Origin: Sandaracinaceae bacterium
Lineage (GTDB): Bacteria; Myxococcota_A; Polyangia; Polyangiales; Sandaracinaceae
Assembly (NCBI GenBank): GCA_040218145.1
Contig: JAVJQK010000032.1
Span: 1 to 35,568 of the forward strand
Reading direction: 5' to 3'
Length of the DNA: 35,568 nucleotides
The first letter of the stretch is position 1, and every line of letters begins with the position of its first letter. Positions 1,178 through 11,592 of this stretch are shown in pieces. A program made the translations under genes and the position numbers. The notes under the pieces were generated by a model. It did not search any database, was not told where the DNA came from, and worked only from the letters and a program-made list of their open reading frames with translations.

Positions 1178-1384
1178 TCAGTTGCAGCCGCAGCCGCCGC
1201 CGGCCGCGTCGAAGCCGCCGGCCGAGGCCTCGCGGACCTCGGTCGCGTGACCCTCGGCCGCCTCGAGCTCTTCCGCGCCGCCGAACTGCATGTCGGTGCG
1301 GGCGAGGCGCTCGCGCTCCCAGGGCTGGATGGTGACGCAGCCGCTCAGGCAGATGAGGCAGAAGGTGAAGGTGAGCAGGCGCAT
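1178..1384 (-). CDS. DUF4266-family small lipoprotein
   Basis: This 68-aa protein has a signal sequence ending in the lipobox LSGC (Cys near residue 16), so it is predicted to be a lipoprotein. The mature part starts VTIQPWERERLARTDMQF and ends with a Glu/Ala segment, REASAG and the glycine-cysteine tail GGGCGCN. The WER...LA..MQ motif and the CGCN end are the marks of DUF4266. From family knowledge, DUF4266 genes commonly sit beside DUF3570 genes and thioredoxin-like genes, which holds here. Its start is 3 nt past the DUF3570 stop, so the two are probably translationally coupled. No biochemical function is known to me. Confidence 0.85.
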   Translation of the reverse strand: MRLLTFTFCLICLSGCVTIQPWERERLARTDMQFGGAEELEAAEGHATEVREASAGGFDAAGGGCGCN

Positions 1385-1387
1385 GGG

Positions 1388-2587
1388 TCAGAGCTCCAGG
1401 GTGAACGACAGGGTGCCGTCGAGGGCGTAGACCTCGTCGAGGCCGACGAAGTCCGGGTAGACGAAGGCGGTGCCGCCGACGGCGAACGCGACCTTCAGGT
1501 CGACGCCCTCGGTGAGGTGGGCGAGGCCCTGGTACGAGAAGGCGAGGCGGTTCGAGAAGGTAGGGCTCAGCTCGCGGTCGCGCGTGACGTACCGTATCTG
1601 CGCGCCAGGAGGCGGATCGTACCTTGCTTGATAGAAGCCGGCCGCGGTCTGCGTGTAGAAGCGATAGCGGATGGTGAGGGACTGGTTCTCCGCCGGCACC
1701 CACGCGATCTGCGCGATGGCGGTGTGGGAGTAGATCCCCCAGTCGTCGAAGTAGAAGCGGTAGCCGATCCCGCCGCTGGTGTCGTCGCTGAACGCGTAGC
1801 GGCCCTGCAGCACGAAGGCGTTGCGGATGCGGGTGCTCGGGTGCGCCTCCGGGACGCAGAGGCTCGCGGTGCCGAGCTCGCCGTTCTCCGGATCGATGCC
1901 GCACATGCCGTTTCCGCCCAGCCCGACGAAGCGGTAGACGCTGGACTGGAAGCCGGTGCGGTACATGCCCTCCCAGACCGCTTGCACGATCGCGTCAGGC
2001 GAGAGGATCTGCGACCACACGAGGCGCGCGCCGAAGGTGTCGAGCGGCTGCTCGAAGTTCGGGTCGCCGCTCCGGCCGACGATGTCGTGCACGTAGCGCA
2101 GGCTCTGGGTCAACGTGGTGCTCTTGCCGAAGAGCTCCTCCGTCGCGCGGAGCGTGAAGCCGTGGGACCAGTAGTCGTTCTCGCCCGAGTAGTAGTAGGC
2201 GCCGAGCAGGTTCACGTCGCCGAGCTGGTGGCTGACCGACAGGTCGAGCTGGTCGCGCTGCTCGGTGATCCACTGGTAGGGGGCGTCTTCTTCCGCGCGC
2301 GTGCCGACCGGGCGGGTGGCCGCGGTGCGGATGTCGATGCTCGCGCTGGTCCAGACGTCCGCCATGTACGAGGCGGTGACCTGGGTCTCCTCCTCGATGT
2401 CGACCTGCACCGCGGCGCGCGGGGAGACGACGATGGTGGCGTCGCTGTCACCCCGGATGAACACACCCGCCGTGCCCTCGTTGGCGGCGGCGACGGCAGG
2501 CACGGCGAGGAGCGCCGTGAAGCAGACCAGCGCCCGCGCCGCTGCCCGCGAGGGGCGTGTTGCGGGGCTGTCTACGGGGTGGGGCAC
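1388..2587 (-). CDS. DUF3570 protein, predicted outer-membrane beta-barrel
   Basis: The product is 399 aa. It starts at GTG (2585-2587), with a signal peptide of about 35 residues ending near AVAAANEG. The rest alternates polar and aromatic residues in short strands, as in transmembrane beta-barrels. DUF3570 features include VTASYMADVWTSASIDI near the mature N-terminus, GAYYYSGENDYWSHGF, the YRFVGLGG segment and a C-terminus of alternating residues ending in Leu (TLSFTLEL). The role in the cell is unknown. The neighbours suggest an outer-membrane channel associated with the small lipoprotein downstream and the multihaem cytochrome upstream. The 129-nt gap to the cytochrome gene could hold a promoter, but I see no convincing one. 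Confidence 0.8.
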   Translation of the reverse strand: MPHPVDSPATRPSRAAARALVCFTALLAVPAVAAANEGTAGVFIRGDSDATIVVSPRAAVQVDIEEETQVTASYMADVWTSASIDIRTAATRPVGTRAEEDAPYQWITEQRDQLDLSVSHQLGDVNLLGAYYYSGENDYWSHGFTLRATEELFGKSTTLTQSLRYVHDIVGRSGDPNFEQPLDTFGARLVWSQILSPDAIVQAVWEGMYRTGFQSSVYRFVGLGGNGMCGIDPENGELGTASLCVPEAHPSTRIRNAFVLQGRYAFSDDTSGGIGYRFYFDDWGIYSHTAIAQIAWVPAENQSLTIRYRFYTQTAAGFYQARYDPPPGAQIRYVTRDRELSPTFSNRLAFSYQGLAHLTEGVDLKVAFAVGGTAFVYPDFVGLDEVYALDGTLSFTLEL

Positions 2588-2716
2588 TGCGTTGACTGCG
2601 AGCGGGGGGGCTTTGTGGTTCGTCGCGATGTGGGCGCTGCCCGGGAGACAGGGTACTGGGTCTCCGCGGGCAAGGGCAGGGGCAGGGCGCTCGGCGCGGT
2701 CTGGCCGCGCCTCGCT

Positions 2717-5695
2717 TCACTCGATGTAGTCCGCCGCGTCGCCCTGGGCCGCGCCGTCCGCGTCGATCCAGCTGTCGAGCACGACGCCCACGTCGGGGTC
2801 GGCCAGCAGCTGGGTGAGGTCCGCGCCGAGCGGGCCGCTCGTGTACGGGTTGGTGGCGCCGATGCGCAGGCCGCGCACGCGCTCGCGGTCGAGCGCCGGG
2901 TGGCTGCTCGAGGCGTTCGAGATGCCGTTCGCCTCGACCAGGCCGTCCAGGTTGTAGACCACGTCGTTGGCGTTGAAGGTCCGCGCCGGCGCGCCGTCCG
3001 GGCAGTACGCGCGGTTGGCGTTGTCGTCGAGCGGGTTCTCGGGGCAGCCCGTGTCGTCGAAGAGGAAGATGCCGGAGCCGAGGCCCGCCACCATGTGCAC
3101 CCAGATCGGGCTGTCCAGCTGGTTTCCGGTGTTCTGGCCGATGTGCTGGCGCAGCAGGTTGAAGTCCAGGTTGTTGTAGTTCCGGTTCGCCAGCGCGTTG
3201 CGGAAGACGTCGTACTGCGCGCCGAAGGTGGCGAGCGAGTTGTCGGTCATGTGGCAGGCGACGCAGTAGCGCGGGCCCTCGTCCGAGCCGCTGACCCGGC
3301 CGCGGATGGAGTGCGGCATCATCGCGTCGTGGCTGAGCGCGCCGTGCGCGTCCCGGCCGCCGACGTCGGGGTTGTTGCCGTTGCCGTTGCGATCGCTGAA
3401 CGCGAAGACCTGAGACTCGTTCCCGTTCAGGTCGAAGTACCGGTAGAACATCTGGATGCCCGGCTGGGTCTGCGTGATGCGGCCCCGCGCGTTGACGCCC
3501 AGGTAGAAGGGCACCGGCGTCTGGTAGGTGAAGTCCGCCGCGGCCTGGAACTGCACGATGCGCTCACCGGTCAGGTTGCTCGTGAAGTAGTTCGCCGGGT
3601 TGGCGTCGTAGCCGTTCGCGAGGTGGCAGCCCACGCAGTTGTTGGTCCAGCTCGAGTGGCAGCTCGCGCAGTCCATCCGGTCGGTGTGGCTGAAGCCCGC
3701 GGTGTAGGTGGTGGGGTCGGTCTGGAGCGGGCCGATGCCCGTGGCCGGGTTGCCGTCGGCGCGGCCCATCGCGTACGAGCCCATGGGCGTGTAGAGGCGC
3801 TGCCGCGTGAACGGGTTGACCTTGCCGTTGTCGACGACGACGTCGCGGGTCTGCACCACGAAGTGGCGGCGGCCGGTGAGGCGGCTCGTCAGGTAGAAGT
3901 CGTCGCCCTCGCGGGTCACGTGGCGGAGCGGGTTGCCCAGCCGGTCGATGCCGCACTCGGCCTCCCCGCCCGCGTAGGTGCGGCAGGGGACGGTCGCCGC
4001 GTACGAGCTGACGCCGCCGTGGCAGCTCTGGCACTCGATGTGGGTGCCCTGGCTCATGCGGCTCATGATGCGGCCGCTCGTGTCGTCACCGCGCGTCCCG
4101 CCGTGGAGGTCGCGGCTGCCGTGGCAGTCGATGCAGCCGAGGCCGGCCTCGTGGTGCACGTCCGCGGGCGTGTCGTCGCGGTTGTCGCCGTCGTAGTCCT
4201 CCACGAGGAGGTACTGGTCGGCGTCGCGGCCGTTGAAGGTGTTGTTCCCGACGGCCGGGTCGAACAGTCGCGTGTCGTTGGCCGTGTTCTCGAAGTTGTT
4301 CGGGTTCTCCGGGTACTGGTTGCCCTGCGCCACGTCGCGGTTCTGGTCGAGCCGGATGCCCCAGTACTGCATCACGGTGCGGTTGCTGCCCTGGTGGCAG
4401 CCGGCGCAGGCGTAGTCGCTGATGCCGCGCACGAAGGCGCCGCCCGGCAGGGTCTTGGCCACGTTGCGGATCTGGTGGCTGTCGATGTGCGCGCGCTCCG
4501 GCGCCGCGATGGCGTCGGGGTCGGCGGGCTCGAAGTGGTTGACGTTCGGGTCCGTGCTCCGGCTCCGGCCGTCGGCGCTGTACTCCATGTGGCAGGCGGT
4601 GCAGCCCGAGGAGCGGAAGTCGCCGTAGCGGTCGTTCTGGCCCGCGCTGCCGAGGTGGCAGTCGCCGCAGGTGATCCCGATCGCCTCGAAGTAGGTGTGC
4701 TCGAGCGGCGTGTTCGGGATGATCCGGTTGGCGCCGTCGGGGTCGCCCGCGGCCGTGACGTAGTCGCCGAAGTTGTTCGCGTTGTAGACGGGGTTCTCGT
4801 AGATCTCGCCCGTGCCGAACTGGCCGCGCTCCGGGAGCGCCTCGACGCGCCCGATGGAGCCGACGAGGTCGGCGGGGCCGTCCCAGTCGTCGTCCTGGTC
4901 GGCGCGCCAGCCGTAGTCGCCGGCCGTGTTCTCCCAGAGCCCGCGGTGCTCCGGGATCTCGTTCTCGAGGCCGGCCGTGTAGGCCGCGCCGCTGAACATG
5001 CCGACCGCGTTGCCGATGGGGCCGTTCTCGACCCACTCCGCGTGCTCGCCCGCGTGGCAGCCCGGGGTGCCGCAGCCCTCGCCGCTCGTCACGACGCGGA
5101 GGTCACCGGGGTTGATGAACTGAAGGTACTCGAGCGCGGTGTAGGTCACGCCGTCGACCGTGTAGTCGGGGAAGTTGTCGATGCCGGCGAGGGTGCGGCG
5201 GTTGGCGTAGGCGATCTCGTCCCTGATCAGCCGGTCGTCGTCGCCGATCTCCGGGGGCGGCGGCACGTGGCTGCCGAGGCGCCCGGTGCCCCGGCCGTTG
5301 CCGCCGTGGCAGGTCGTGCACTGCACGTTCGGCTCGCCCGGGAAGGGGTGCGGGTTGCTCATCCCGTCGCCCGCGTAGTCGTTCCGCTCCGAGCCGTTGT
5401 GGCAGCTCATGCAGCTCTCGGCCGGGCCGTCGGGGATGGGCGGGCCGCCGGCGTCGCCGCAGTCCGGGTCGGGATTGCAGAGCCGCGGGTCGCACTCGCA
5501 GCACGCGAGTCGATAGGTGATGTCGGTCTCGGTGCACCGGTCGAGCGCGTCGCAGTCATACGTCGTACCGCGGTACTCGTAGGCGTTGCACATCGGAGCC
5601 GGACCCACGCCGCCGTCGCCGGTGATGAAGGGGTCGGGCGAACAGGCGCTGGCGAGCAGCGCGAGGACGGTGAGCGGCGTGAGGCGTCGATTCAT
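2717..5695 (-). CDS. Secreted 11-haem c-type cytochrome lipoprotein
   Basis: The frame gives 992 aa from ATG 5693-5695, preceded by AAGGAAGAG as ribosome site. A signal sequence ends LLASAC, with Cys as the probable lipid attachment residue. Ten CXXCH haem sites are visible at about residues 95, 125, 342, 363, 429, 520, 554, 674, 686 and 810: CMSCH, CTTCH, CGDCH, CTACH, CAGCH, CIDCH, CQSCH, CASCH, CVGCH and CVACH. One atypical CX4CH site, CGTPGCH, lies near 207. A cysteine cluster (CCECDPRLC) lies near residue 60. Haem spacing is wide, with about 300 residues having only one site near the middle and a long haem-free C-terminal part, unlike compact decahaem MtrC/OmcA. Likely role: electron transfer at the periplasm or outer surface. 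It is the first gene of the minus-strand set with DUF3570 and DUF4266; the acceptor is unknown. Confidence 0.85.
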   Translation of the reverse strand: MNRRLTPLTVLALLASACSPDPFITGDGGVGPAPMCNAYEYRGTTYDCDALDRCTETDITYRLACCECDPRLCNPDPDCGDAGGPPIPDGPAESCMSCHNGSERNDYAGDGMSNPHPFPGEPNVQCTTCHGGNGRGTGRLGSHVPPPPEIGDDDRLIRDEIAYANRRTLAGIDNFPDYTVDGVTYTALEYLQFINPGDLRVVTSGEGCGTPGCHAGEHAEWVENGPIGNAVGMFSGAAYTAGLENEIPEHRGLWENTAGDYGWRADQDDDWDGPADLVGSIGRVEALPERGQFGTGEIYENPVYNANNFGDYVTAAGDPDGANRIIPNTPLEHTYFEAIGITCGDCHLGSAGQNDRYGDFRSSGCTACHMEYSADGRSRSTDPNVNHFEPADPDAIAAPERAHIDSHQIRNVAKTLPGGAFVRGISDYACAGCHQGSNRTVMQYWGIRLDQNRDVAQGNQYPENPNNFENTANDTRLFDPAVGNNTFNGRDADQYLLVEDYDGDNRDDTPADVHHEAGLGCIDCHGSRDLHGGTRGDDTSGRIMSRMSQGTHIECQSCHGGVSSYAATVPCRTYAGGEAECGIDRLGNPLRHVTREGDDFYLTSRLTGRRHFVVQTRDVVVDNGKVNPFTRQRLYTPMGSYAMGRADGNPATGIGPLQTDPTTYTAGFSHTDRMDCASCHSSWTNNCVGCHLANGYDANPANYFTSNLTGERIVQFQAAADFTYQTPVPFYLGVNARGRITQTQPGIQMFYRYFDLNGNESQVFAFSDRNGNGNNPDVGGRDAHGALSHDAMMPHSIRGRVSGSDEGPRYCVACHMTDNSLATFGAQYDVFRNALANRNYNNLDFNLLRQHIGQNTGNQLDSPIWVHMVAGLGSGIFLFDDTGCPENPLDDNANRAYCPDGAPARTFNANDVVYNLDGLVEANGISNASSSHPALDRERVRGLRIGATNPYTSGPLGADLTQLLADPDVGVVLDSWIDADGAAQGDAADYIE

Positions 5696-6011
5696 GGCTC
5701 TTCCTTCGTTCCCGAGAGGGGCCGGACGAGAGGCCCCGCTGCCGGCTCCGCATGTTTCGTGCCCAGCGTGATCCCCGGCGGAGGCAGCGGATCGGGGGGT
5801 CGAGGAACCCCGCATGCTCCCACAGAACGCGCTCCGTGTTCCAAAGAACCGGGGTGCTCGGTCACCACCGAGGACGCGGGACCCCGGCCAGTCGTGCACG
5901 ATCCCCGATGAAACCAGCCCTTTTCGTGCCGAGCGCGCGGAGCCCGGTCGGCGCCGGGGCGGCGGCACGGGACGTGCGTGGGTTCGTGCCGTGTCCATCA
6001 GGAGGTACGAG
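5696..6011. promoter_or_regulatory. Divergent intergenic region, cytochrome/thioredoxin
   Basis: These 316 nt must hold the promoters of both the minus-strand cytochrome gene and the plus-strand thioredoxin gene. I found no -10/-35 pair, operator palindrome or riboswitch I could defend. GC-rich dyads occur (for example GGGGTGCTCGG near 5850 and AGCCCGGTCGGCGCCGGGGC near 5940). The only clear signal is GGAGG at 6001-6005, the ribosome site of the thioredoxin gene. Confidence 0.35.
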
Positions 6012-6506
6012 ATGAAGCGCTGGATGGTTGGTTTCTTCGCCGCGGGCGCGGCCCTTCTGGTCACCTCGGCCGTGGCGGCGCTCGACCCGGGCGCCCGCGC
6101 GCCCGCCTTCGACGGTCGGGCGCTCGCGAACGCGCAGCGGATCGACCTCGCGCAGCATCGCGGCTCGGTGGTGGTGGTCGACTTCTGGGCTTCGTGGTGT
6201 GAGCCGTGCGCCGAGGCGATGCCCGCCCTCGAGCGCATCTACCAGCGCTACCGCGGGCAGGGCCTGGTGGTGATCGGCGTGAGCGAGGACCGCACCGCGG
6301 ACAACGCGCGCGGGTTCCTGAGCCGCACCCGGGTCTCCTTCCCCGTCATGCACGACGCGGATCACTCGGTGGCGAACCGCTTCAGCCCGCCCACGATGCC
6401 CTCCACCTACATCATCGACCGCCAGGGCGTCGTCCGGCATGTACACTCTGGGTTCCGCGGCGGTGACGCGGCGACCCTCGAGCGTCAGATCCGCGAGCTG
6501 CTGTAA
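6012..6506 (+). CDS. TlpA/ResA-like periplasmic thioredoxin
   Basis: ATG 6012 follows GGAGG at 6001-6005 with a 6-nt spacer, giving 164 aa; longer upstream frames are rejected on this ground. An N-terminal signal segment (MKRWMVGFFAAGAALL) is followed by the thioredoxin fold with VVVVDFWASWCEPCAEAMP, carrying the redox WCEPC motif, and the cis-proline region TMPSTYIID. This class (TlpA, ResA, CcmG) reduces disulfides outside the cytoplasm, including those in apocytochromes c before haem attachment. Its position opposite an 11-haem cytochrome gene fits that job. Family knowledge also links TlpA-like genes to DUF3570/DUF4266 loci. It is followed after 4 nt by a barrel-like gene, so the two are probably co-transcribed. 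Confidence 0.88.
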   Translation: MKRWMVGFFAAGAALLVTSAVAALDPGARAPAFDGRALANAQRIDLAQHRGSVVVVDFWASWCEPCAEAMPALERIYQRYRGQGLVVIGVSEDRTADNARGFLSRTRVSFPVMHDADHSVANRFSPPTMPSTYIIDRQGVVRHVHSGFRGGDAATLERQIRELL

Positions 6507-6510
6507 GTCC

Positions 6511-7830
6511 ATGCGCGCCCTCCTCCTCTTCCTCGCCGTCCTGGTCGCCGCCCCCGCGGGCGCGGCCGCGCAGGCGAGCGACACGCCCCGGGTGCTCTTC
6601 GCGCCCGGCGGAACGGTGCCCGTCCGCCTGCGCCGCACGGTCTCCCGCCTGCTCTCGTCCAACGCGGTCCTCGTCAGCTACGAGGACTACGTGCGGGCGT
6701 GCAACGAGGCGGGGATCCGGCCGAGCAGCGCGCGCGCGGTGCGGAGGGTGGGGACGCAGCAGAACGCGACGGTGATCGTCGTCGGGAGCTACGGCGGGCA
6801 CTACCGCCGCCGCATGCTCCGCCTCCGCTACTACAGCGGCTCCAGCGGCGAGCTGATGACGAGCGGGAACTACGCGCTCCGCGGCCAGCATCTCCGCCCC
6901 TCCAGTCAGCACGCGATCTTGCGTGATCTCGCGACCGTCACCGGGGGCGCGCCGCCGCCCGCGCAAGCCAGCGCGGCGAGCGAGGAGCCGTCCTCCGAGG
7001 CCGAGGGCGAGGGCGGAGACCTGCCCCCGCCCCTCGACTGGGAAGCCCAGGAGGCGGCCGCGGCCGAGGAGGCGGCGGCGGAGCCCGCGCCCGAAGAGTC
7101 GAGCGACGGCGAGGCCACCCCCCTCTCGGAGCAGAAGCAGTGGGGCTTCGCGGTCAGCGCCGGCGCGGGCATCGCGCAGCGCTCGAGCAGCATCCCGATG
7201 GAGGGCGGCGCCGCGCGGCTGAGCACGATCCCGTTCCCGGCCATCCAGGCCCAGGTGCTCGGCTACGTCCGCCCGGACGCATCCAGCCGCTACCGCCTCG
7301 CCCTCGCGGTGCGCTACACGACCTCGGTCGGCCTCCAGGGCCGCGACGAGCGCGCCGACGGCAGCACCCGCACCACCGACATGCGGGCGCACCACCTGGC
7401 GATCGGCCTCCGCAACGACATCCCGCTCGCTCCGGGCGAGCGCCCGACCCGGCTCCAGCTCGAGGTGGGGTGGGGCTTCCGCATGCTCGACAGCGAGATC
7501 CCGGTGTCGATCCCGGATTACACGCTGAGCGGTATCTACGCGCGCATCGGGCTCTGGTTCCACATCGGGGACAGCCCCTTGTCGCTCGGCATCGTGCCCG
7601 AGATCGGTCACGTGGGGAGCCTCAGCGACGATCTGTCTCAGTCCGGACAGGTGCAGGATGGCTTCCTGGTGGGCGCCGAGGCGCACGTCCGGCTCGAGGT
7701 GATCCCCGAGGTGTCCATCCACCTCCTGTACCGCGAGGCGCACGCCTTCCTGGGCAGCGCGCGCGAAGGCGGGGGCGAGATGAACGACGCCGAGCGCTAC
7801 GGAATCCTCCGCGCCGAGTATCAGTTCTAG
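6511..7830 (+). CDS. Outer-membrane-like protein with N-terminal periplasmic domain
   Basis: This 439-aa product starts at ATG 6511, 4 nt after the thioredoxin stop. The signal peptide is MRALLLFLAVLVAAPAGAAAQA. Residues 25-145 form a compact domain (VLFAPGGTVPVRLRR, NATVIVVGSYGG) resembling small periplasmic alpha/beta modules. Residues 150-205 are a Glu/Ala/Pro-rich linker. From about residue 210, amphipathic strands continue to the end, which finishes EYQF, a terminal aromatic residue typical of barrel proteins. I do not recognise a named family. The shared operon suggests a role in the same envelope redox module; the barrel assignment is an inference from residue pattern. Confidence 0.7.
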   Translation: MRALLLFLAVLVAAPAGAAAQASDTPRVLFAPGGTVPVRLRRTVSRLLSSNAVLVSYEDYVRACNEAGIRPSSARAVRRVGTQQNATVIVVGSYGGHYRRRMLRLRYYSGSSGELMTSGNYALRGQHLRPSSQHAILRDLATVTGGAPPPAQASAASEEPSSEAEGEGGDLPPPLDWEAQEAAAAEEAAAEPAPEESSDGEATPLSEQKQWGFAVSAGAGIAQRSSSIPMEGGAARLSTIPFPAIQAQVLGYVRPDASSRYRLALAVRYTTSVGLQGRDERADGSTRTTDMRAHHLAIGLRNDIPLAPGERPTRLQLEVGWGFRMLDSEIPVSIPDYTLSGIYARIGLWFHIGDSPLSLGIVPEIGHVGSLSDDLSQSGQVQDGFLVGAEAHVRLEVIPEVSIHLLYREAHAFLGSAREGGGEMNDAERYGILRAEYQF

Positions 7831-7882: not shown

Positions 7883-9394
7883 GTGAGTCGAGGTGCAGAA
7901 GACGGCGCTGACCGGGGCAAGACGTCGACCTTCGCGGAGGTCGGTCCGGAGGAGGCCAGCGGCGTCCAGCGGAGCGACGCGCGCCGCACGGCGCTCGGCG
8001 CCGAGATCGAGCTGCAGCAGCGCGAGATTCGCAAGCTGCGAGGTCAGGTCGGGCGGCTCGAGCGGCTGCTGCGAATGCAGGCGGACGACAGCGCCGCGTC
8101 CAGGCACCTCGAGGAGCTCGTCCTCGAGTCCGAGCGGCGCGCCCACATCGACGAGGCGCTCCGGAGGGCCACGCTCGCCTTCCAGCGCTCGCCGAACGAT
8201 CCCGACGCGGTGGTCCAGGTGGCGGGGCAGGCCTTGCTCGAAGGGGACCTCCGCTCGGTGCTCTGCGACGTCGACCCGGAGCGCGGCGAGGTCGTCTTCC
8301 GGCAGTACTTCGTCTCCCCCGTGCTGCTCCGCGCGACCGAGCAGCTGACGGGCATCCCGGCCGAGGGCTTCCGGCTCCGGACCCGCGACATCGAGCTCTT
8401 CCGCCGGGTCGTGGAGGATCGCGAGACGGTCTTCACCGACGACATGGTGGGCTTCGTCGAGCGGATGCTCCCCGAGCAGGTGCGGTGGACAGCCAGCCTC
8501 CTCGCCAACATCATCGGCGGCCGCGACGTCACGATGGCGCCGCTGGTGGTCGGCGGGCGCGTGGCGCACGTCTTCATGATCTTCTCGGAGCAGCTCCGCC
8601 CGCAGGATCGGCAGGCGGTCGCGTTCTTCGCGCAGCTGCTGGCCGCGGCGCACGAGCGGGCGCGCATGGTGCGGGAGCTCCAGGAGCACGTCGGGCGGCT
8701 CGAGGACACCCAGGCCCAGCTGGTCCAGGCGCAGAAGATGGAGGCGGTCGGCCAGCTGGTCGGCGGCATCGCGCACGACTTCAACAACATGCTCACGGCG
8801 ATCGGCTCGGCGGCGCACCTCGCGCAGATCGAGGCGGACGAGCCAAATCGTCTCGAGTCGAACCTCGAGCTCGTGGCCGACGGAGTGCAGAAGGCCGGCA
8901 CGCTCGCGCGTCAGCTGCTGCACCTCTCGCGGCCTTCCATGCGGGTCCTCGAGAAGGTCGACGTGGACGAGCTGCTGCACGACCTCGAGCCCCTGCTGAC
9001 GCGCGTGCTCGACTCGGCGCACTTCCAGATCGATCTGGAGGCCGCGAGCGGCGCGACCATCGAGGTGGAGCGCTCTCAGCTCGAGCAGGTGGTGCTCAAC
9101 TTCGTGGTCAACGCGCGCGACGCCATGCCCGAGGGGGGGCGCATCCGCGTCGCCGCCGTGCGCGCCGCCGACGGGCAGCTGGCCGGCGTCGAGGTCGCGG
9201 ACACGGGCCAGGGCATGGACCCGGAGACGCGGGCGCGCGCGCTCGACCCGTTCTTCACGACCAAGGGCCGGCGCGGCACGGGCCTCGGCCTCTCGGTGGT
9301 CCGGTCGATCGTCGAGGCGCGCGCGGGCCGGCTGGAGATCGAGACCACCCCGGCGCGCGGCACGAGCATCCGCGCGCTCTTTCCCCTCGCCTGA
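7883..9394 (+). CDS. Soluble sensor histidine kinase (coiled coil, GAF-like, HisKA, HATPase)
   Basis: GTG start, 503 aa, with no membrane segment. Residues 38-95 are a heptad-rich coiled coil. Residues 98-262 look like a GAF-like sensor domain (DAVVQVAGQALLEGDLRSVL, MAPLVVGGRVAHVFMI). The H-box GGIAHDFNNMLTAI carries His298, followed by the HATPase with N-box NFVVNARDAMPEGG (Asn410), G1 VADTGQGM (Asp440), the FFTTK segment and the G2 loop GTGLGL (465-470). The H-box is of the AHDFNN type, often found in kinases with attached receivers, but no receiver is present here. The protein must therefore signal to a separate regulator not visible next to it. It converges on the next gene with an 8-nt gap. 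Confidence 0.88.
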   Translation: MSRGAEDGADRGKTSTFAEVGPEEASGVQRSDARRTALGAEIELQQREIRKLRGQVGRLERLLRMQADDSAASRHLEELVLESERRAHIDEALRRATLAFQRSPNDPDAVVQVAGQALLEGDLRSVLCDVDPERGEVVFRQYFVSPVLLRATEQLTGIPAEGFRLRTRDIELFRRVVEDRETVFTDDMVGFVERMLPEQVRWTASLLANIIGGRDVTMAPLVVGGRVAHVFMIFSEQLRPQDRQAVAFFAQLLAAAHERARMVRELQEHVGRLEDTQAQLVQAQKMEAVGQLVGGIAHDFNNMLTAIGSAAHLAQIEADEPNRLESNLELVADGVQKAGTLARQLLHLSRPSMRVLEKVDVDELLHDLEPLLTRVLDSAHFQIDLEAASGATIEVERSQLEQVVLNFVVNARDAMPEGGRIRVAAVRAADGQLAGVEVADTGQGMDPETRARALDPFFTTKGRRGTGLGLSVVRSIVEARAGRLEIETTPARGTSIRALFPLA

Positions 9395-9402
9395 GCCGCT
9401 CC

Positions 9403-10134
9403 CTAAACGCGGCGTCGCCGCCCGCGCGCCACGAGCGTGAGCAGCGCGAGCAGGCCCAGGAGCGTCGGCTCGACCGCGCGGGCGGGGGACGCGGCGCAGG
9501 CGCTCCCGACGCGAGAGCTCTCGGCGCGGTCGCCGAAGGGCGGGACCACCTGGGAGTAGAGGAGCACACCGTCGCCGGTGGGGTCGCCCGAGCCGTCGCT
9601 CGCGACCACGCCCGCGTGGATCCACATGGGTCCGGGCGGGGTCGCGGGCGCGGTCCACGTGAAGCGGAGGCGGGTCGCGCCGCAGCCGTCGACGGTGGCC
9701 ACCCGGCGGCTCTGGGGCAGGTCGCTCAGGTGCGCCGCCTGCTCCGCGGGCGCGCCGTCGACGGGCAGGCAGAGATCGGCAGGCTGCGGGCCGCCGATCA
9801 GCTCGAGCGTGCCCATGCCGTTGCCGTTCTCGTCGGTGATCTCCACCGCCGCCCCGGCCGAGGCGCCGTCGGGCAGCTCCAGCTCGAGCGCGTAGGTCTC
9901 GCCGGCCGCGTAGCCGCCGTCCGGGAGGCCGGTCAGCTCGCCGTCGCGCGGCGGCGCCTCGCCGCGATGGCAGACGTTGCAGCTGTAGCCGTCGTTGAAG
10001 CTGCCCGTGAAGTAGCGACCGCCGCCGCCGCCTTCGAGGGCCGAGACCTCGAACTGCTCGTACTCCGAGAACGCCGCCGCCTCGGTCGGGGCGATCCCGA
10101 GCGAGACGAGCAAGGCGAGACACGCGCGCCTCAT
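9403..10134 (-). CDS. Secreted single-haem protein with possible MYXO-CTERM tail
   Basis: ATG at 10132-10134, 243 aa. The signal peptide is MRRACLALLVSLGIAPTEAAA. A GYSCNVCHRGE haem site lies near residue 52, followed by GLPDGGYAAGETYALEL and a beta-rich region, an arrangement resembling the choice-of-anchor/reeler-like domains of myxobacterial surface proteins. The end has a cysteine (GSACAASPA), a hydrophobic stretch PTLLGLLALLTLVA and the basic run RGRRRRV. That is the tripartite layout of a MYXO-CTERM-type sorting signal, in which the cysteine is modified and the tail removed. The gene start overlaps the upstream gene's stop (ATGA), so the two are coupled. Confidence 0.7.
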   Translation of the reverse strand: MRRACLALLVSLGIAPTEAAAFSEYEQFEVSALEGGGGGRYFTGSFNDGYSCNVCHRGEAPPRDGELTGLPDGGYAAGETYALELELPDGASAGAAVEITDENGNGMGTLELIGGPQPADLCLPVDGAPAEQAAHLSDLPQSRRVATVDGCGATRLRFTWTAPATPPGPMWIHAGVVASDGSGDPTGDGVLLYSQVVPPFGDRAESSRVGSACAASPARAVEPTLLGLLALLTLVARGRRRRV

Positions 10135-10595
10135 GGCGCCCCCGGGAAGCCGAGCCGCACCCAGTCCAGCAGGATGCGGTAGCTCGGGTGGTCGGGGCTC
10201 GGGTAGACGTCTTGCCCATGTTGATCGATGCCCATGTGCGGCGCGCCCCCGCGGTCGACCTCGAGGGGCTTGCGGATCAACAGCGTGTCCTCGGGGCGCC
10301 TCACGCCGCTCAGCATCGAGCGCGCGCGCTCGTAGGACGACGCGATCTCCTCCGGCGTCGCGGGGTCGTCGAGCGCAGTCAGGTCGTCGTTCATGCGCAT
10401 GCGGTTGGGACCGAACACCCGGAAGAAGCGCTCGCGCGAGCCGTGACAGTCGGGGAAGCCGCAGTCCCGGAGGAGGATCGGGTAGACCTCGTTCTCGAAG
10501 ACGACCGCGCTCGGCGCCGGTGGATCGGCAGGCGCATCGAAGGCGCAGCCGGCGAGGGTGAGCGCGAGCCATGAGATCGACACGGCGCGGCGCAT
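10131..10595 (-). CDS. Small lipoprotein with CX4CH haem motif
   Basis: ATG 10593-10595, 154 aa. The signal ends in LTLAGC, a lipobox. The mature protein has FENEVYPILLRDCGFPDCHGS, a CX4CH site (CGFPDCH) in the place where secreted monohaem domains of Planctomycetota and Myxococcota often carry C-x(2-4)-CH. The C-terminal half, with RRPEDTLLIRKPL, GGAPHMGIDQHG and YRILLDWVRLG, matches the cytochrome-like repeats in which a His or Met near GG.H..G may be the second ligand. Likely an envelope electron carrier or haem-binding surface protein. It is first in a two-gene unit with the possible MYXO-CTERM protein. Confidence 0.72.
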   Translation of the reverse strand: MRRAVSISWLALTLAGCAFDAPADPPAPSAVVFENEVYPILLRDCGFPDCHGSRERFFRVFGPNRMRMNDDLTALDDPATPEEIASSYERARSMLSGVRRPEDTLLIRKPLEVDRGGAPHMGIDQHGQDVYPSPDHPSYRILLDWVRLGFPGAP

Positions 10596-10809: not shown

Positions 10810-11592
10810 ATGCGCATTTCTTTCACGCACGTGCTCGCGCCCCTCGTCGCGCTCGGCCTCGTCGCGTGCGAGGCCGCGATCATCACCGCCCCCAGCGGGC
10901 CCGGCCCCGGGCCTGGGCCTGGGCCCGGCGGCGACCCCGAGATGATCTTCCTCGCGGAGGTCCAGCCGCTGCTCGAGGCGCGCTGCCGCAACTGTCACGA
11001 GGACCCCGAGGCGGCGCCGGTCTTCCTCGATCCCGCCGACTACTACGCGTCCGTGCTCGCGTACCCCGACCTCGTCGTGCCCGGCGCGCCGAACTCGAGC
11101 ACGCTGGTGACCAAGGGCAACCACCGCGGCCCCGCGTGGGAGGCCTCCGAGGCGAGCATCGTCCGCGGCTGGATCCAGGCCGAAGCCGACGCCGGCATGA
11201 CCGACGCGGGCACCGAGCCGGGGCCCGGGCCTTCGCGCGAGGCACGGATGACCTCCGCCTACCCGGTCGACGCAGGGGTCGAGAACCGGATCCCGCTCGC
11301 GGAGGTGGGACTGGTCGGCGCAGAGCTCGTCTTCACCGCCAACCGTGTCGCGAGCGGCATGATGCTCAACGACGTGCGCATCGTCGCCGCGAGCAGCTCC
11401 ATCTCGTTCTCGCACCCGCGCCTCGTCATGTGGGCCGACACCACGCCGACCATGGACAGCGACCGCTTCAGCGATCTCGAGATGACGATCAGCGCCGGCA
11501 TGAGCGGCACGCTCACCTCGAGCTGCGTGCTGGTCGACTTCCCGGAGAACGGGGAGCTGTCGGTGCAGTTCGAGTCCGCCTCGACTCTCTGA
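10810..11592 (+). CDS. Single-haem lipoprotein with Gly-Pro linker
   Basis: ATG 10810 gives 260 aa and a proper lipoprotein signal (MRISFTHVLAPLVALGLVAC, Cys near residue 20). Upstream in-frame ATGs at 10648 and 10687 would bury the signal, so they are rejected. A GPGPGPGPGPGG linker precedes a monohaem domain: MIFLAEVQPLLEARCRNCHED with CRNCH near residue 60, and NSSTLVTKGNHRGPAW with a possible His ligand. Residues 135-260 form a second, beta-rich domain without recognised family. It is divergent from the CX4CH lipoprotein across a 214-nt gap, so these three haem proteins probably form one local set. It ends 6 nt from the convergent helicase gene. Confidence 0.75.
   Translation: MRISFTHVLAPLVALGLVACEAAIITAPSGPGPGPGPGPGGDPEMIFLAEVQPLLEARCRNCHEDPEAAPVFLDPADYYASVLAYPDLVVPGAPNSSTLVTKGNHRGPAWEASEASIVRGWIQAEADAGMTDAGTEPGPGPSREARMTSAYPVDAGVENRIPLAEVGLVGAELVFTANRVASGMMLNDVRIVAASSSISFSHPRLVMWADTTPTMDSDRFSDLEMTISAGMSGTLTSSCVLVDFPENGELSVQFESASTL

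Follow-up and report, generated by a model that had tools for sequence, protein, structure and literature searches.

A haem-partnered DUF3570 gene cluster in Myxococcota as a candidate outer-membrane electron-transfer unit

Genes of the cluster

The 35,568-nt contig JAVJQK010000032.1 of a Sandaracinaceae bacterium (hereafter the window) carries a cluster of genes for a DUF3570 protein, a DUF4266 lipoprotein, an 11-haem c-type cytochrome lipoprotein, a thioredoxin, an outer-membrane-like protein that we call OM5, and three further haem proteins, one of which is a CX4CH lipoprotein that we call c1 (Table 1). This cluster is a haem-partnered variant of a known flavinylated DUF3570 system. A first-pass annotation, made from the sequence of the window, had delimited a unit of 6.7 kb (1178-7830) with DUF4266, DUF3570, the 11-haem lipoprotein, a divergent WCEPC thioredoxin and an outer-membrane-like protein. 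Open reading frames (ORFs), called by a simple GC-codon rule, and Pfam matches place the first four genes exactly where it had put them. The outer-membrane-like protein is also present and ends at 7830, but it starts at 6511 rather than at 6439. The parts of the unit hold but its extent does not, as the conserved cluster reaches 11592 and includes three more haem genes.

These three genes (c1, the choice-of-anchor V protein and the CRNCH lipoprotein) are kept in two genomes of the same family (L019 and L020), as is the thioredoxin gene. The whole gene order is common to the window and these two genomes: the genes for the cytochrome, DUF3570 and DUF4266 share a strand, those for the thioredoxin and OM5 diverge from them, and the three haem genes follow. 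The window encodes c1 and DUF3570 in two distinct genes with 7.5 kb between them. The surveyed genomes are mostly metagenome-assembled genomes with contig breaks.

Table 1. Genes of the cluster and their positions in the window (AF2, AlphaFold2; pLDDT, predicted local distance difference test)
Feature	Position	Strand	Basis
DUF4266 lipoprotein, 68 aa	1178-1384	-	PF14086 E=1.2e-16; C-terminal GGGCGCN (CXC)
DUF3570 protein, predicted 16-stranded outer-membrane barrel	1388-2587	-	PF12094 E=4.6e-34
11-haem c-type cytochrome lipoprotein, 992 aa, Cys-rich N-terminal domain	2717-5695	-	10 CXXCH + 1 CX4CH, lipobox
TlpA/ResA-like thioredoxin (WCEPC), divergent from the 11-haem cytochrome	6012-6506	+	PF00578 (AhpC-TSA) E=2e-24
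OM5: TolB/LpoB-like N-terminal domain, disordered linker, predicted 10-stranded barrel	6511-7830	+	AF2 pLDDT 83.9
Choice-of-anchor V monohaem protein (CNVCH)	9403-10134	-	NF041895 45.4 bits, cut-off 42
c1: CX4CH lipoprotein	10131-10595	-	CX4CH + lipobox; recurs beside DUF3570
Monohaem lipoprotein (CRNCH)	10810-11592	+	Relatives in L019, L020, L156, L206, L208-L210

Haem partners of one DUF3570 clade

The most constant haem partner of the DUF3570 clade that includes the window copy is c1. This clade takes up 29 of the 81 sequences in a DUF3570 protein tree (IQ-TREE; support 95/94), and c1 lies within 8 kb of DUF3570 at 25 of these 29 loci and at none of the 52 others. The four clade loci without c1 are one with the 11-haem protein (L101), its contig-broken sister (L113), one with another haem lipoprotein (L156), and one cut by a contig end (L119). 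Because some of the loci had been picked for holding the 11-haem cytochrome, we also give the count for the unbiased subset of 60 loci picked regardless of haem, where c1 occurs at 11 of 12 clade loci and at 0 of 48 others (Fisher p=3.5e-11). In the rest of the tree, most ApbE-adjacent copies lie on one side, and two large clades have neither ApbE nor these haem genes.

Homologues of c1 contain the CX4CH motif in 44/44 cases, the lipobox cysteine in 93% and a second conserved histidine in 91%, while the c1 lipoprotein matched no Pfam family. A c1 profile run over the surveyed DUF3570 loci picks up 33 ORFs, and 20 background stretches give none. Of the 80 best c1 places across 377 genomes, 36 are at most 10 kb from a listed DUF3570, where 0.32 would be expected. 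A search with nothing but the DUF3570 sequence yielded 20 loci, some of them in the same genomes; 15 of these contain c1, 19 contain OM5 and three the 11-haem protein, with at least one haem gene (motif present in the sequence) in 18 and no ApbE in the flanks of any of the 20. OM5 adjoins DUF3570 in nearly all loci L201-L219, and both OM5 and the choice-of-anchor V monohaem protein are frequent companions of c1-DUF3570 loci. An association of DUF3570 with haem genes beyond the window, which the first-pass annotation had predicted, thus recurs far above chance in both the clade counts and the 377-genome count. Its regular partner was expected to be a multihaem protein; instead, the usual partner is c1.

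Within the cluster, the 11-haem protein is optional and not the usual haem partner of DUF3570, because it occurs with DUF3570 in some families and without it in others. It adjoins DUF3570 in families f1, f9, f22 and f23 and lies near it in f18, while homologues in f35, f46, f53, f19 and f29 have no DUF3570 nearby. Overall, homologues are found in 29 of the 377 genomes of the phylum and form two subgroups, long and short. The window protein has a lipobox at residues 15-18, CXXCH motifs at 95, 126, 343, 365, 430, 521, 555, 676, 687 and 811, and a CX4CH motif at 208. Two orthologues (72% and 68% identity) retain every one of the 11 sites, which excludes chance motifs. Judged by profile scores, the protein appears to be a distant homologue of ExtM and no more, matching the ExtM equivalog NF040943 with 82.5 bits (E=2e-23; cut-off 800 bits). 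A shorter relative gives a stronger ExtM match (E=1.8e-40), and the score of the window protein against the OmcA/MtrC family TIGR03507 (19.9 bits) falls below the cut-off of 209.3.

Other arrangements are seen around these cytochromes. Directly upstream of DUF3570, locus L213 encodes (at 8946-9941) a lipoprotein of 331 aa that has six CXXCH motifs and apparently replaces the 11-haem protein. In loci L081-L094, 11-haem homologues without DUF3570 adjoin larger c1-like lipoproteins, several of them with two CX4CH sites. Downstream of the short cytochrome in L106 (144-5951) are genes for glycosyltransferases (GT87, GT2) and for a protein that combines DUF2064 with radical SAM/SPASM, along with further conserved genes, a set common to several f23 genomes.

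The choice-of-anchor V protein of the window ends in a MYXO-CTERM-like tail that scores 13.8 bits against TIGR03901, below the cut-off of 20. In two loci (L209, 8726-11098, and L210, 1728-4199), a single frame without stops spans a choice-of-anchor V haem protein and DUF3570, with simple repeats linking the two; this is either a young fusion or the result of a stop codon lost in a microsatellite. We did not accept it as a true fusion, given the simple-repeat joint and the signal-peptide-like stretch before DUF3570.

Flavin and haem in DUF3570 clusters

DUF3570 and DUF4266 are not blank parts, since an earlier study had assigned both to a redox system based on flavin and thiols (PMC8238504). 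According to the available text of that study, DUF3570 is an experimentally shown substrate of ApbE with two [ST]GA[ST] sites, and its clusters contain DUF4266 (with a terminal CXC), thioredoxin-like proteins, often DsbD, and, in some bacteria, iron transporters. The same text describes no cytochrome partner for DUF3570, and in the openly licensed literature outside it we found neither DUF3570 nor DUF4266 named. The window cluster shares with these ApbE-flavinylated clusters the DUF3570 protein, DUF4266 with its terminal CXC, a thioredoxin-like protein and an extracytosolic redox setting. In contrast, it lacks ApbE, carries TSAS and TAAT at the flavin sites, and has haem proteins and OM5 added. 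As DUF3570 is an ApbE-flavinylated redox protein in other lineages, a variant with haem in place of flavin, or with both, is coherent. The thioredoxin had been proposed to keep haem-binding cysteines reduced. It also sits in ApbE/DUF3570 clusters where such a haem lipoprotein was not found, so its presence is not specific to haem cysteines.

The flavin-site equivalents of the window DUF3570 are TSAS at residue 80 (DVWTSAS) and TAAT at residue 88, neither of which conforms to [ST]GA[ST]; in the structural model, they fall at the end of strand 3 and in the long loop that follows it. The window genome has four DUF3570 genes, each with DUF4266 next to it, and a single ApbE on contig C77, near none of the four. 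At a second of these DUF3570 loci (L009), haem lipoproteins lie nearby, one with two CXXCH motifs and one being c1, while no haem gene was found near the other two (L008 and L010). In one genome, whose assembly is incomplete, c1 accompanies DUF3570 at two loci (L225, L226) and ApbE was not matched, which suggests that the haem form of the cluster can do without flavinylation. We dropped the firm claim that flavin was lost because the motif had lost its glycine, given that some haem-clade copies keep TGAS (L228, L230, L231), that TAAS or SAAS stands in some copies next to ApbE, and that most genomes encode an ApbE elsewhere.

Predicted barrels and a proposed electron route

The first-pass annotation had proposed a beta-barrel for DUF3570 and named beforehand a non-barrel model as the outcome that would speak against it. 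The AF2 model of the window protein (21 sequences; pLDDT 84, predicted template modelling score (pTM) 0.78) is a barrel of 16 long strands. In structural comparison, it resembles 16-stranded outer-membrane barrels at Z about 18-20, with PgaA, BcsC and PelB at Z 19-21, while MtrB is matched only at a root-mean-square deviation (rmsd) of 8.3. The modelled C-terminal barrel of OM5 matches the 10-stranded OmpT/OpcA fold at Z 20-22 and its N-terminal domain matches TolB-N at Z about 10; the window OM5 matched no Pfam family. Sequence searches of the PDB returned no relative of DUF3570, c1 or OM5, and insignificant matches only for the 11-haem cytochrome. A search of the window genome with TIGR03509 (MtrB/PioB) gave no match, but the search control gave no signal either.

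The MtrB barrel is wider than 16 strands and sheathes the decahaem MtrA. The predicted width of DUF3570 therefore argues against an MtrCAB-like multihaem plug, for which the modelled barrel would be too narrow. Sixteen strands would leave room for a small cytochrome and not for a decahaem plug, so that a Cyc2-like arrangement with small haem lipoproteins fits better. In Cyc2, a monohaem cytochrome and a 16-stranded porin are combined in one protein (PMC8406198). The window cluster shares with it the 16-stranded barrel, predicted here, and a single-haem cytochrome. It differs from Cyc2 in that haem and barrel are on separate genes and that its haem proteins are CX4CH and CXXCH lipoproteins; kinship in sequence is not apparent.

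Based on the gene linkage and the predicted folds, we propose, with a probability of roughly one half, that the cluster functions as an outer-membrane electron-transfer unit composed of a DUF3570 barrel and small haem lipoproteins. Contact between the proteins, the passage of electrons across the membrane, its direction and its substrate are all things that we infer. The barrel would pair with the small haem lipoproteins as the monohaem domain of Cyc2 does with its own porin, but as separate chains, and electrons would reach or cross it by way of c1 and the choice-of-anchor V protein. The 11-haem lipoprotein might act as an optional wire or as a terminal reductase on one face, and DUF4266 (through its CXC) together with the TlpA-like protein could provide a thiol relay or a maturation aid. 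Of the conduit first suggested, consisting of barrel, small lipoprotein and cytochrome, the barrel and its linkage to haem remain and the kind of function is plausible, while the 11-haem core and the MtrCAB-type plug are not favoured.

Several points weigh against this proposal. Away from any listed DUF3570 lie 44 of the 80 best c1 places, a figure inflated by contig breaks and weaker DUF3570 hits. With OM5, the cluster has two predicted barrels, either of which may serve the haem proteins. Furthermore, 316 of the 377 genomes encode an ApbE elsewhere, and DUF3570 may be flavinylated by it in trans. Finally, loci L114-L116 and L235-L237 hold ApbE, DUF3570, DUF4266 and c1 together, possibly as flavin and haem hybrids.

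The recurrent haem-partnered DUF3570 clade is a finding worth following. If confirmed, the proposed unit would represent a new class of outer-membrane electron route, with a narrow barrel and small haem lipoproteins, where few routes are known, in host myxobacteria not known for metal respiration. It would give a testable role to DUF3570, DUF4266 and two unnamed families (c1 and OM5). Moreover, it would offer a clear example of flavin/haem exchange on a common scaffold and so broaden the modularity described in PMC8238504. A tentative generalization would be that DUF3570 barrels are outer-membrane electron-transfer scaffolds in which the cofactor was swapped in evolution, with flavin attached covalently to the barrel in one lineage, separate CX4CH haem lipoproteins in another, and hybrids in between. 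The haem lineage would then form an undescribed class of conduit that is common among Myxococcota and has no kinship with MtrB or Cyc2.

Somewhat unlikely, in our estimate, is a redox relay on the periplasmic side with no crossing of the membrane, in which the haem lipoproteins, TlpA and DUF4266 supply electrons for a reaction on the barrel's inner face, such as the reduction of an imported metal or ligand. Such a relay would accommodate the iron transporters that the available text of PMC8238504 places in DUF3570 clusters, the persistence of TlpA and CXC-bearing DUF4266 in flavin and haem clusters alike, and haem lipoproteins that could face the periplasm. The tail of the choice-of-anchor V protein argues against it, though below cut-off, as the MYXO-CTERM tag sorts proteins to the cell surface according to the available text of PMC11980579.

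We regard as decidedly unlikely a system resembling that of ExtI, in which a soluble oxyanion or metal enters through the barrel and is reduced by the cytochromes. ExtM belongs to the Geobacter extHIJKLMNOPQS cluster, where the reduction of selenite and tellurite is affected when the porin ExtI is missing (PMC5877670). The distant but significant similarity of the 11-haem protein to ExtM, stronger in the shorter relative, and the place of ExtM in this ExtI-containing cluster are in its favor. However, the ExtM match lies far below the equivalog cut-off, and most c1-DUF3570 clusters lack the 11-haem protein. The window cluster and the Geobacter ext clusters (PMC5877670, PMC6148476) share a porin-like protein beside several cytochromes, but no rhodanese, b-type cytochrome or Rieske gene was identified in the window cluster.

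A conduit of the MtrCAB type, the form suggested earlier, would have the 11-haem protein and the DUF3570 barrel as its membrane-spanning core. The two genes are 130 bp apart on the same strand, an order kept in L019 and L020, and are also adjacent in family f9 (L101); like MtrCAB/OmcB-type conduits, the cluster combines an outer-membrane barrel (predicted here) with a multihaem lipoprotein. This reading is nevertheless very improbable given the barrel width and the poor MtrB match, and given that the 11-haem protein is optional, with homologues often found where no DUF3570 is near. The DUF3570 barrel appears unrelated to those of MtrCAB/OmcB, the cytochrome scores below the OmcA/MtrC cut-off, and the cluster has one multihaem lipoprotein with no separate periplasmic multihaem protein seen. 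That these are chance or loosely related neighbours without a shared function, as the varying gene order and strand (divergent in f23) might suggest, is hardly credible and already disfavoured by a linkage that is far above expectation in 28 genomes and tracks one DUF3570 clade.

Several f23 loci (L103, L106, L108 and L109) contain porin-like ORFs of family c6 with an N-terminal CSDCH or CSACH (AEPRFA...CH), beside DUF3570 and the short cytochrome. These monohaem-porin ORFs resemble Cyc2 but miss the Cyc2 consensus, and would fit the proposed setting of small haem proteins and DUF3570. In the window, a 39-bp tandem repeat in three copies (94% matches) lies at 825-941, between a GNAT gene and DUF4266.

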